A stretch of DNA of 64,000 bases from NCBI RefSeq assembly GCF_000016905.1, contig NC_009616.1:682001-746000 (forward strand). Reading direction: 5' to 3'. How positions within the stretch are numbered: the first letter of the stretch is position 1; the number at the start of each line of letters is the position of its first letter. Shown here piece by piece: positions 33,892 through 38,891 of this stretch. The notes under the pieces are model-generated. The model searched no databases. It had not been told where the DNA came from and saw only the letters and a list, made by a program, of their open reading frames with translations. Origin of the DNA: Thermosipho melanesiensis BI429. GTDB lineage: Bacteria > Thermotogota > Thermotogae > Thermotogales > Fervidobacteriaceae. The position numbers and the translations under genes were made by a program.

Positions 33892-33920
33892 AAAAACAAA
33901 GGAGTGCCCATGGCACTCCT
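33892..33920 (-). terminator. Terminator after the exported-protein cluster
   Basis: A nine-bp stem AGGAGTGCC/GGCACTCCT with a three-nt loop, overlapping the last bases of the lipoprotein stop codon. On the minus strand it is followed by TTGTTTTTG, a broken T tract. It would end transcripts of the 33919-38822 gene set. Confidence 0.7.
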
Positions 33921-34494
33921 ATTTTAATTGTATCCTTTTCACTTTCACATTGCCAGATGCTCCCGTTTTAAAATACGTTGTACCAGGAGGGGTTTTTCTT
34001 ATAAACGAAATAAGGTAATTACCAGCAATAATGTTTTCTTCACTAGACAAAATATTTCTATTTTCAATCCAGCCCTTCTCTAACATATTATCCAACCAGA
34101 TATTAAATTTTGTAGCATTAATATTATACGTATACACAATTATATTTCCCGCTAAATCCTTTTGAACCTCCGCTATATTCTTTGGCAACCCCGATTTCAT
34201 TCTAAGGTTAATATTTATCTTACCATCAACCAAAGCGTAATCATAATCAAATATATTAGTATCAAGAGAAATAGACTTTATTTCCGTAATTTTTTCTCCA
34301 ATTCCCGTAGAACCATCTTTTAAAATTATATCAAAACCATTTACTTTCCCTTTCACAAAAACTTTATTTCCATACGGATCTGTTATCTCAACAGGTGTTT
34401 TTATTAAAACATAAGGAGTATTATTTTTTGTAAAGATACCACAACCACTTAAAATTATCAGTATAACAGCAAACATAAAAATCGCTTTTTTCAT
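33919..34494 (-). CDS. Small lipoprotein of unknown function
   Basis: 191 aa with a lipoprotein signal peptide: hydrophobic FMFAVILIILSGC with the lipobox LSGC, so the Cys at residue 18 should be lipidated. The mature part is beta-rich (VLIKTPVEITDPYGNKVFVKG, KININLRMKSG) and contains no motif I recognise. It is the third gene of a minus-strand exported set, 11 nt after the beta-propeller/dockerin gene, with a TAAGGAGGG site before its ATG, and it ends at a terminator. Likely to act outside the cell membrane with its neighbours. Confidence 0.75.
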   Translation of the reverse strand: MKKAIFMFAVILIILSGCGIFTKNNTPYVLIKTPVEITDPYGNKVFVKGKVNGFDIILKDGSTGIGEKITEIKSISLDTNIFDYDYALVDGKININLRMKSGLPKNIAEVQKDLAGNIIVYTYNINATKFNIWLDNMLEKGWIENRNILSSEENIIAGNYLISFIRKTPPGTTYFKTGASGNVKVKRIQLK

Positions 34495-34505
34495 AATATC
34501 CCTCC

Positions 34506-37274
34506 TTAATTACCCGAATACTCAATGTTAGTTGATGGTGGTGTATAACCATACATTACTAAGAATACATTTAAATCGTATTCATCAATCTTTCCATCCT
34601 TTTCAGAAAATCCCGGAATATATCCTCTGTTTGGAGGTGAAAAGTCAGTTCTAGGACCAATATCGTATAACGAATCGTAAATACCATTTACTTGATAATT
34701 ATATAACGCATTTCTAAACATTATGTAATCATCAATATCAATAACACCATCTAGGTTAAAATCTCCGGGAAGTGTTAAATATTTATTTGCAATAAATCTA
34801 TTTTTGGATAAAAGCCCTTTTTCAACTGGATTGTTCTTAAGCTGGGTGTAAAGTTCTATATCAAATAATTCAAAATATCTTGCCTGATTGTTAAAATACA
34901 AAAACGTATTTGTAGCAAAATCTAACCATAAACTTATTGTTGCAACCCTTGTATCTTGTGAAATACCACTCTTAGAGGTTTCTTCAAATACAAATTTCAA
35001 ATAATCATTATTCATAATCCTCAAATCTGTGTTTTCAACAAATGATGGGTTTATATCTATAGAAGTAACTGTAGCAAGGCTCATTGAAATTTCAGAATTT
35101 GTAAGAGTTGCATACAAAGTACTAGATAATGCACCTTTAGCAGCATCAATTAGTATAAATGCCCTTGCTTTATTTTCTGCATACATTGGAACAACAAATG
35201 TTACAGTACCAGTAAGTTCTGTATAGAAGATTTCTATATAAGTTGGTGCCCTGCCTGTATCATCAATTCCAAGGTCTAAACTATCTATTGATCTATAATC
35301 AAACGATTTATACCCTGTTAAATTATTAGAACTATAATCCCATTGGTATACCTTCCATCTATACGCAAATGCGGTACTTGGAATAGTAATACTAGGAGTA
35401 AATGGATTATAAGCATCTATTGTCTTTGATGTTTCATCTTTTCCAAATGAAATTAATTCAGAGGCAACACTATCAGGTAAATTATACTTTATCAAAATAG
35501 CATATGTAGAATCTACCAATACTTCCGCATCCTTGTCTTCATACCCAAACAAAATAGTTGCAAGTGGACTTTCAATATAGGGTACGTCCAAACCTGGTAT
35601 TCCAGAATCAAATTGCCTAAAAGAAAATGTAGCATCCACAAGAGGTGCACTTGTTACATCGTTTGTTACATTGGTTATAAAGGAATCATTAAATAGCAAT
35701 GTCATTGTGGTTTCGGTAGCAAACCTTATCAAAAGTTTATCAAGACCTGCACGTCCAATTGGTATGGGATCATTGGCAGAACTATCAGAATTATCCACAT
35801 TTGGATTTGTTTTATATTCATACGTACTAAACGACGATATATCTCCACTATCCGATATTGAAACAACTGTTGCATCAAATAATACTCCATATTTACCATT
35901 TGTTTCATTAAGTACATCTTTTGAAATTTCTATACCAGAATACCAATCTTTAGCTTTTAAAGTTATACTCGTTTGAAAAGTAGGAGCATTCGAATCCACA
36001 AAACCCGTCCTATAAGAATTTTGTGCCTCCATCGCCCAAAATCCATAAGGTCCTTTTGCATCTACAGTATATGCATAAACCTTATCCTGATTTGTCGTAA
36101 AAGCAATTATATATCTTTCATCGTTTACAGATGAAAGAGGAACCATGGCTGGAGAACCAATTGTTGGTATATTTTCACCTAAGTCTTTTTCCCATTCTAC
36201 GTCAAAAGTATAATCGTTATAATCCATAGAATACACTACAGCTTTTCCAAAAGTTTCACCATTAAGCAACGTGAAAATATAAATCTTATCTTCCGTAGTT
36301 TTTTTAAATAAAAGCGGTGTAGTTGCAAATCTGAAACCTTCCTTAAATTCATCATATATTGAATGAGAGGCTACCTTAAACAAGTCATCAGAAACCCTAA
36401 TAATGTGTATGGTACCAAGATCATCAAAAACATACACATAACCTTTTGAGTCAACCAAAACCCCTGCAGCCATACTAGAAGAGCCTAGTTGTATCACATC
36501 AACATCGGAATTAGTCCCCTCAGGAGGAATCTTGTATAACGTACCATTTCTACTTACTGCGTATATGAAACCTTCACTATACGCCATTGGTGTTTCAAAC
36601 TCTCCACCTAATTGTATTTTATTAACACTTGAACTATCAAAATTATATGAATTATCCAATGCTATTTGATAAAAATTTCCTCTATAATCAAGAACAAATA
36701 ACGCATCTTTTTTAGGTGATAAAATAGGAGTTATTTCCACTGGAGCATCTGTAGCATAAAAATCATTTGTAACGGTAAATGTATCTGTACCAACATCATA
36801 CACTAAATGATATACCCCATGCCCACCATCTACTCCTATACCCACATAAATATGTATATTCCCAGTTGAAGAATCATAAAAAGCAACTGCAGCCCTTGAG
36901 ACATTACCAATAAGTTCTGCTCTTTTACTTGTACTAGATGTTCTAACATTCACATAACTTTTTCCATCATAGTTTGAAGTAACATAAACAATATAATTTC
37001 CTCCCACTATTATTGGATAGCTTATATGTTTCCAACCTATTCCCCCATCTGGAGAACCGTAATTTCCAACAATATTTCCCAATCTATTTATAACGTAATA
37101 ATATGCATCTTTAGTTATAACATGAACATCTCCCGTTTGTTTTAAAGCAACTGCTCCACCCTTAACATAACCAGTTGGACTAAGTGTAATGTAGTCGTTT
37201 TCCCATAGGGGAGATATATCAAGTGCAAATAAAAAAACGGAAAATACCAAAATTAAAATAACTAACTTTTTCAT
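34506..37274 (-). CDS. Large exported beta-propeller protein with a C-terminal dockerin-like module
   Basis: 922 aa with a signal peptide (KKLVILILVFSVFLFALDI). Residues about 25-430 form a PQQ-like or YVTN-like beta propeller, with repeated strands such as GFIYAVSRNGTLYKIP, GYVYVFDDLGTIHII and ALFVLDYRGNFYQIA. A long beta-sandwich middle follows. The end (837-908) has dockerin-type calcium loops: GDFNLDGVIDIDDYIMFRNAL fits DxNxDGxIDxxD exactly in 12 positions, and EKDGKIDEYDLNVFL gives a second, partly degenerate loop. Dockerins bind cohesins in cellulosomes, but related modules with other partners occur widely. No cohesin gene was recognised in the window. It is flanked by two lipoprotein genes in one unit. 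Function unknown; surface display or glycan binding is possible. Confidence 0.78.
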   Translation of the reverse strand: MKKLVILILVFSVFLFALDISPLWENDYITLSPTGYVKGGAVALKQTGDVHVITKDAYYYVINRLGNIVGNYGSPDGGIGWKHISYPIIVGGNYIVYVTSNYDGKSYVNVRTSSTSKRAELIGNVSRAAVAFYDSSTGNIHIYVGIGVDGGHGVYHLVYDVGTDTFTVTNDFYATDAPVEITPILSPKKDALFVLDYRGNFYQIALDNSYNFDSSSVNKIQLGGEFETPMAYSEGFIYAVSRNGTLYKIPPEGTNSDVDVIQLGSSSMAAGVLVDSKGYVYVFDDLGTIHIIRVSDDLFKVASHSIYDEFKEGFRFATTPLLFKKTTEDKIYIFTLLNGETFGKAVVYSMDYNDYTFDVEWEKDLGENIPTIGSPAMVPLSSVNDERYIIAFTTNQDKVYAYTVDAKGPYGFWAMEAQNSYRTGFVDSNAPTFQTSITLKAKDWYSGIEISKDVLNETNGKYGVLFDATVVSISDSGDISSFSTYEYKTNPNVDNSDSSANDPIPIGRAGLDKLLIRFATETTMTLLFNDSFITNVTNDVTSAPLVDATFSFRQFDSGIPGLDVPYIESPLATILFGYEDKDAEVLVDSTYAILIKYNLPDSVASELISFGKDETSKTIDAYNPFTPSITIPSTAFAYRWKVYQWDYSSNNLTGYKSFDYRSIDSLDLGIDDTGRAPTYIEIFYTELTGTVTFVVPMYAENKARAFILIDAAKGALSSTLYATLTNSEISMSLATVTSIDINPSFVENTDLRIMNNDYLKFVFEETSKSGISQDTRVATISLWLDFATNTFLYFNNQARYFELFDIELYTQLKNNPVEKGLLSKNRFIANKYLTLPGDFNLDGVIDIDDYIMFRNALYNYQVNGIYDSLYDIGPRTDFSPPNRGYIPGFSEKDGKIDEYDLNVFLVMYGYTPPSTNIEYSGN

Positions 37275-37289
37275 TTTAACACCTCCAAA

Positions 37290-38822
37290 TCAATAACCTG
37301 TTATAACTGTAAATACATCTTCTCCCATGTATTCATTTCCTTCTTTGTCTTTTAACCCTTTTACAAACAGATAAAAGTAGCCATAACCTATTGAAGTATT
37401 AACTGTAAAAGTAGCCTGTTTTTCATCAGCGGAAATTTCACTTAATTTCATTTCTAAAACGTTGTAATATTCTGAGTAATGGTCTTCTTTTATATATAAA
37501 ACAGGAGTAGAAGTTTTAGATATACCTCCTGCATCTTCAAATAATACACTTATTACATTATTCCCAACAGGTATTCTGCTGCTTTCCGTTTTACTTATAA
37601 CCTTTCCATTTATAGACATTGCCATCAATTTCGGTGCGTTATTATCCTCAACAGTTATATATCTTTCGTTTATACCTGCCCGTCCATTTTCATCTTCCGC
37701 ATACACAGTTATATAATGCTGCCCTTCTTCCACAGTCCACTGGACAAATGTTTGATTTGTAGTCTCGAAAAATTCCTCCCCATCTATAAAGTACACTATT
37801 TTCCTAAAGTTAATATTTTCCTCAGTTGGAACTACTGCAATTATCGTGGAATGTCCTGGTATTAAACTATTTTCATTTGAAATGGCTATTTCAAAATTCA
37901 AATAAGTATCTCCTATAAGTATTCTTTTTCCTATCATAGATTTTTTTCCAAGCCAATCAGTTGCTTTTACTATTAAAGAATGGTCACCAGGTTCAAGTTT
38001 ATTTAATTGCACAGGTATGCCCTTTAACTCTTTTTGTTCAACTGTATCTTTTAATTTCGACTCTCCATCTAAATATACTTCATAACTTGAAAGTTTCACA
38101 TCATCTGATATATTAACTTTAATCAAAATATTAGAATTTGTTGGATAAGAAAATTTACTTTCTATAGTAATAAGGGGTGCTTCGTTATCTATAGGCAAAA
38201 CATTCAAAGTCACCTTTGTTGAATAATTAGAATCTAATAAGTTATCGACCTTGATATAAAATTCTTTATCTCCCGGTTCATTAAAGCTTCCTAAGTCCAA
38301 AAATACTTCTCCTGGATTCACGGTTTTAGATATTTCAGAAATTCCATATCTTTCCAACCCTTCTGTTTTAACATTTATTTTCGAATTTGAAGAATTAACT
38401 TTAAGATAAAGAATAACATCATCACCTACAAATATTTCTTTTGGTATAACCCAAATATCACTTATTAACGGGGCAGATGGATCTACCACAAACAAATTTG
38501 TCTTATAAACCTCATATTTTTTTCCATCTAAAAGGGAAATAGCACTTGCCTTTAAAGAATAATCTCCTGGTTTTTCAAAGTTAATATCTATGGTTTCAGG
38601 AACTTTTCCAAATGTTTTTATAATCCTTTCGTTATACTCATTTACCAATTCTAACGTTCCACTTCTCACACCTATCAAATTCCCCGTTATAACTATTTTT
38701 GCACTTTCGGTGTTTTCTATCACATCTGGTGCTATAATTTCCAAATCAAAATTTTTATCCCCTGTTGTACAGGACATAAAGACAAAAAGTATTAAAAAAA
38801 GCAAATATATTATTTTCTTCAA
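37290..38822 (-). CDS. Lipoprotein with Ig-like repeats
   Basis: 510 aa. The TTG at 38820-38822 has GGGGGTG five nt upstream and gives KKIIYLLFLILFVFMSC, a lipoprotein signal with the Cys at residue 17. The rest is a chain of about five Ig-like or fibronectin-like beta-sandwich units with repeated phrases: APLISDIWVIPKEIFVGDDV, APLITIESKFSYPTNSN, PGDHSLIVKATDWLGKKS, EGQHYITVYAEDENGRAGI. Such arrays act as rods or adhesion modules at the cell surface. It is first in the three-gene exported set and could anchor or scaffold the dockerin-bearing protein, though this is speculation. Confidence 0.78.
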   Translation of the reverse strand: MKKIIYLLFLILFVFMSCTTGDKNFDLEIIAPDVIENTESAKIVITGNLIGVRSGTLELVNEYNERIIKTFGKVPETIDINFEKPGDYSLKASAISLLDGKKYEVYKTNLFVVDPSAPLISDIWVIPKEIFVGDDVILYLKVNSSNSKINVKTEGLERYGISEISKTVNPGEVFLDLGSFNEPGDKEFYIKVDNLLDSNYSTKVTLNVLPIDNEAPLITIESKFSYPTNSNILIKVNISDDVKLSSYEVYLDGESKLKDTVEQKELKGIPVQLNKLEPGDHSLIVKATDWLGKKSMIGKRILIGDTYLNFEIAISNENSLIPGHSTIIAVVPTEENINFRKIVYFIDGEEFFETTNQTFVQWTVEEGQHYITVYAEDENGRAGINERYITVEDNNAPKLMAMSINGKVISKTESSRIPVGNNVISVLFEDAGGISKTSTPVLYIKEDHYSEYYNVLEMKLSEISADEKQATFTVNTSIGYGYFYLFVKGLKDKEGNEYMGEDVFTVITGY

Positions 38823-38891
38823 GTTTTCACCCCCAACATGTCTTTTACATAATACTTCTATATAATACTTCTGCAATCAAATTTTTTTGTC

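Follow-up and report, generated by a model that had tools for sequence, protein, structure and literature searches.

The three-gene unit at positions 33919-38822 of the window, the 64,000-nucleotide stretch of the Thermosipho melanesiensis BI429 genome (a single contig of 1,915,238 bases) analysed here, may encode an envelope-associated, calcium-stabilised assembly in which two lipoproteins flank an exported scaffold with a C-terminal connector. We give this reading a probability of about 0.45. The two lipoproteins would be anchored, probably in the outer membrane, on either side of the scaffold, whose N-terminal BamB-type propeller would act as a binding head and whose C-terminal tandem of a cohesin-like module and a dockerin would act as the connector. 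Most simply, the tandem would bind the same tandem of a neighbouring molecule head-to-tail, and one gene product could in this way give dimers or chains tied to the lipoproteins. We infer here a cohesin-dockerin contact, between or within molecules, as well as the contact with the lipoproteins and the outer-membrane location.

A closed operon with two lipoproteins

Three ORFs on the minus strand, separated in the ORF list by gaps of 15 nt and 11 nt, make up the unit, and each is preceded by a good ribosome-binding site. The stem of a strong intrinsic terminator lies directly 3' of the gene 3 stop codon, and the three-gene unit is therefore closed at its 3' end; the genes are presumably co-transcribed. 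The features are as follows.

37290..38822, minus strand: gene 1, Ig-like lipoprotein of ~510 aa, with SD sequence GGGGGTG, lipobox FMSC and a Big_7 match
34506..37274, minus strand: gene 2, exported 922-aa protein with propeller, beta-rich middle, cohesin-like module and dockerin
36030..37157, minus strand: PQQ/BamB-type beta-propeller, ~aa 40-415, from sequence and fold matches
35310..36002, minus strand: beta-rich middle, ~aa 425-655, of low pLDDT in the model
34839..35219, minus strand: cohesin-like beta-sandwich, ~aa 686-812, a predicted fold with sequence tests not significant
34542..34766, minus strand: dockerin with a long insert (YDIxPxxD subtype), aa 837-911, from the matches of relatives and alignment
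34728..34763, minus strand: Ca loop 1, D838-x-N840-x-D842-x3-D846-x2-D849, from the orthologue alignment
34575..34610, minus strand: Ca loop 2, degenerate, with F/L/V at position 1, from the orthologue alignment
33919..34494, minus strand: gene 3, small lipoprotein of 191 aa
33900..33920, minus strand: intrinsic terminator, 9-bp GC-rich stem and T-rich tail

The gene 1 ORF is open to 38876 (37290-38876) and would then encode 528 aa. The most likely start is the TTG at 38822, directly behind GGGGGTG, which yields 510 aa and agrees with the end coordinate of the first-pass annotation. That annotation had described an exported three-gene set in one closed unit, a description borne out by the tightly spaced ORFs, the export and lipidation signals and the terminator. 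Lipoprotein signals were present in the products of genes 1 and 3 in all family members checked, and the lipobox of the gene 1 product was found in 12 of 12 members. The Ig-like assignment of the latter comes from a Big_7 match of 25.9 bits, above the Pfam cut-off. The possibility that the 528-aa or the 191-aa lipoprotein itself contains a cohesin was rejected, profile comparisons being not significant. Homologues of the Ig-like lipoprotein in family f2 usually adjoin a lipoprotein of 1,400-1,600 aa rich in Ig-like domains (L074:9382-15674, L075, L076 and L085), and several genomes carry ribosomal-protein-like and ssb-like genes nearby.

An exported scaffold with a propeller and a C-terminal dockerin

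The 922-aa protein carries a signal sequence, and the window copy contains neither a lipobox nor any cysteine. In an AlphaFold2 model of the full-length protein the propeller was the sole usable part. Its relatives, by sequence as well as by fold, are BamB and the designed Cake/Scone propellers: sequence searches matched the designed Cake9 (6.4e-44) and 3hxj (1.7e-13), and structure searches matched Cake8 (E 1.6e-12) and several BamB chains with target-normalised TM-scores of 0.60-0.70. 

Pfam applied directly to the window protein did not report a significant dockerin (E 0.47). However, in a whole-protein phmmer search the dockerin residues matched distant Thermotogota regions with E-values of 8e-7 to 6.5e-4, and two of these regions (G050:C3 and G045:C17) overlap Dockerin_1 matches above the Pfam cut-off, indicating that the window dockerin is more than a chance motif. 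Homology to recognised, type I-like dockerins is thus found via relatives and not via Pfam directly. The alignment of the window dockerin with the distant Thermotogota dockerins has the YDIxPxxD-type insert in common, and in nearly every comparison the dockerin was conserved at least as well as the rest of the 922-aa protein.

The first-pass annotation had proposed a C-terminal calcium loop, and conservation of the calcium site among orthologues bears this out for one of two loops. Loop 1 has D or N at positions 1, 3, 5, 9 and 12 in 17 of 18 orthologues, the remaining one having S at position 5. Loop 2 is degenerate, lacking the position-1 ligand. The conserved residues suggest that the dockerin binds calcium.

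A predicted cohesin-like fold precedes the dockerin

The beta-sandwich in front of the dockerin had been guessed to be cohesin-like, and we modelled aa 664-922 with AlphaFold2 from a shallow alignment of four sequences. The mean pLDDT of the model was 59.9, with values of 80-90 over most of the beta core and ~35-57 in the dockerin. When the model was compared by Foldseek with 350,542 solved chains, 34 of the best 50 matches were cohesins. These 50 had E-values of 1.7e-4 to 3.8e-3 and target-normalised TM-scores mostly of 0.3-0.55, with a maximum of 0.55. The cohesins among them come from clostridia, Bacteroides/Pseudobacteroides, Ruminococcus, Clostridium perfringens and the archaeon Archaeoglobus fulgidus, whose non-cellulosomal cohesin 2xdh matched with an E-value of 2.4e-4; the non-cohesin matches among the best 50 were mostly CBM-type modules of related fold, including CBM3. 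The viral structure library yielded no meaningful match.

By sequence, aa 660-834 were not significant as a cohesin in Pfam, in a PDB profile search or in hhalign. The hhalign score of the pre-dockerin module against cohesins (22.7) exceeded the maximum of a column-shuffle null (17.6), but we consider this excess weak, because the Ig-like lipoprotein family scores alike against the same module (22.3) and genuine cohesin sets reach just 23.5 among themselves. With sequence tests not significant and a model of moderate quality, we refer to the module as cohesin-like only. In 18 of 18 orthologues it occurs solely in front of the dockerin of the unit. Elsewhere in the phylum, a Thermotogota cohesin profile picked out cohesins directly ahead of a dockerin of the same subtype in four genomes, G045, G057, G056 and G052. 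Taken together, the fold match and these tandems suggest that the earlier guess is probably right as to the fold of the module, although no significant match was obtained by sequence.

Conservation of the unit

Of 20 genomes of the Fervidobacteriaceae, the toga-forming thermophiles related to Thermosipho and Fervidobacterium, 16 encode both the 922-aa protein and the Ig-like lipoprotein; the other four, which form one genus, have neither. The small lipoprotein is present in 15 of the 20, and the sixteenth assembly ends, at a contig end, before gene 3. Gene maps revealed a constant order of the three genes amid varying neighbours, so that these three are what is conserved together. A further family of the order has copies that are more divergent but arranged alike (G039 and G041), and G055, which belongs to a family of a different order, has a related unit. 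In several other genera of the order to which Thermosipho belongs, the genomes contain no dockerin of the unit's type. A role in the toga or in a lattice, as the first-pass annotation envisaged, is possible; it gained no support, as no evidence places the proteins in the toga, which has structural proteins such as OmpA1/OmpB, and the toga paper (PMC3387000) mentions neither dockerin nor cohesin.

The partner of the dockerin

A lineage-specific dockerin profile recognised two dockerins in the window genome, and the cohesin profile recognised a single cohesin there, which is not part of the unit. The second cohesin/dockerin gene pair lies ~0.6 Mb from the unit (G000:C1:1325318-1328115; L086:7319-10116), where the gene for a lipoprotein of 439 aa that ends in a cohesin shares one base with that of a papain-family protease with a dockerin at its C-terminus. 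Of 61 Thermotogota genomes, at least 8 encode a cohesin lipoprotein of this type beside a dockerin gene (contig ends separate the two in G055), and the pair looks like a surface-anchored protease. The view that the unit carries a dockerin module outside any cellulosome holds in that the unit encodes neither a scaffoldin nor a glycoside hydrolase, but this is not the only dockerin of the genome. A cellulosome was rejected: genome-wide there are one profile-level cohesin and two dockerins, the other dockerin sitting on the papain-family protease.

The unit is present in 15 further genomes of the family, and 13 of these encode this dockerin alone and give no other match to the cohesin profile; of the remaining two, G002 also has the second pair, and in G018 a contig end truncates the unit. 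Since no other cohesin is detectable in these 13, the partner would most simply be found within the unit itself, which favours self-association. On the simplest reading of the gene content, the dockerin would pair with the cohesin-like module of the same protein species, either in another copy or in its own molecule; a partner elsewhere in the genome that is unlike any known cohesin is possible.

Alternative explanations

The same modules could also make the scaffold a self-polymerising surface fibre or tether, whose own cohesin-like socket and dockerin plug would form calcium-dependent chains anchored by the two dedicated lipoproteins; we regard this as doubtful. We consider it fairly unlikely that the two modules bind each other in one molecule, as an intramolecular clamp that stabilises or masks the C-terminus and forms no chains. 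Their adjacent positions, ~25 residues apart, and the fact that neither is seen without the other would suit a clamp; however, so short a linker may keep the dockerin from the binding face, and their relative placement is not settled by the model, given the low pLDDT of the dockerin. Docking on the cohesin of another protein, such as the 439-aa lipoprotein, would make the propeller protein a cargo. Such a lipoprotein is present in the window genome and in G002, but it is missing from every other unit-bearing genome of the family, including the congeneric G001 and G003; these genomes keep the dockerin wherever the contig reaches that far, and the 439-aa lipoprotein has its own adjacent dockerin protease. 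The cargo reading is distinctly unlikely.

The propeller opens a further possibility, that the unit is mainly a BamB-like accessory of outer-membrane assembly or quality control and the dockerin a vestigial, calcium-stabilised end cap. The propeller resembles in fold that of BamB, the outer-membrane beta-barrel assembly factor with an eight-bladed propeller, and shares its PQQ type; an f8 relative reached 89 bits against the PQQ_2/BamB family, and the degeneracy of loop 2 is in keeping with such a cap. Yet BamB is a lone lipoprotein with neither cohesin nor dockerin, whereas the 922-aa protein is non-lipidated and carries extra C-terminal modules, and a dockerin conserved as much as the propeller or more is not what a vestige would lead one to expect; we judge this explanation unlikely. 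We think it quite improbable that the unit serves the attachment of cells, to a substrate or among themselves, as a surface adhesin or glycan-binding complex. Ig-like lipoproteins and propellers are common in adhesion systems, and the export signals fit, but no adhesin, CBM or glycoside-hydrolase family matched the proteins of the unit above the cut-off. An anchored assembly with a C-terminal connector remains our preferred reading.

Relation to known systems

Non-cellulosomal cohesins and dockerins are known, mostly without a function. The kind of system is thus familiar, and we found no description of the present arrangement in the literature. No literature on cohesins in Thermotogota under that name was found, and the papers that join Thermotogae and dockerin concern, judging from title and abstract, either communities of biomass or biogas or the hydrolysis of biomass. 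The unit, conserved and single-copy, is a compact example from culturable thermophiles, and three small proteins would suffice to test its clear partner hypothesis. If its tandem self-associates, it would provide a heat-stable, calcium-controlled connector and a mechanism of envelope-protein assembly in Thermotogota.

Related modules occur in other arrangements in the phylum. G045 (L091:8242-13806) has an arrangement of anchor plus tandem: a small cohesin-ended lipoprotein comes first, and behind it lies a lipoprotein of 1580 aa that combines cohesin and dockerin with FN3 and a caspase-like domain. Three neighbouring genes at L095 (G059:C64) end in the same dockerin-like segment, LAILGAHYGE, and one of them has a NosD-type beta-helix. 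Kosmotoga pacifica (G056, L082:3958-16105) encodes two neighbouring lipoproteins that have a cohesin-dockerin tandem in the N-terminal part and a family-5 solute-binding domain (SBP_bac_5) in the C-terminal part; one of them also contains leucine-rich repeats, and a cohesin-ended, Ig-rich protein adjoins the pair.

With the clostridial cellulosome the unit has the module types in common, a cohesin-like fold and a dockerin, but it lacks a multi-cohesin scaffoldin, a CBM and a glycoside hydrolase, and its single dockerin is of the insert subtype. Archaeoglobus fulgidus, which supplied the cohesin-type fold match 2xdh, likewise lacks a cellulosome and yet possesses both cohesin and dockerin, in a protein context that differs from that of the unit. 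The archaeal system comprises ORFs 2375/2376, one protein carrying both modules, and we know of no BamB-like propeller or flanking lipoproteins in it. ANME archaea possess non-cellulosomal dockerin/cohesin systems with dockerins on solute-binding proteins, and the function suggested for these systems is to fasten proteins to the outer layer (PMC9012536). K. pacifica resembles them in joining cohesin-dockerin to a solute-binding domain. Unlike the Fervidobacteriaceae genomes examined, in which we saw none, ANME have multi-cohesin scaffoldin-like proteins (PMC9012536). The A. fulgidus modules and the systems of these methane-oxidising archaea (PMC9012536) are the nearest described relatives, and by analogy the unit would work like a non-cellulosomal cohesin-dockerin system, as an anchored, calcium-stabilised protein assembly.
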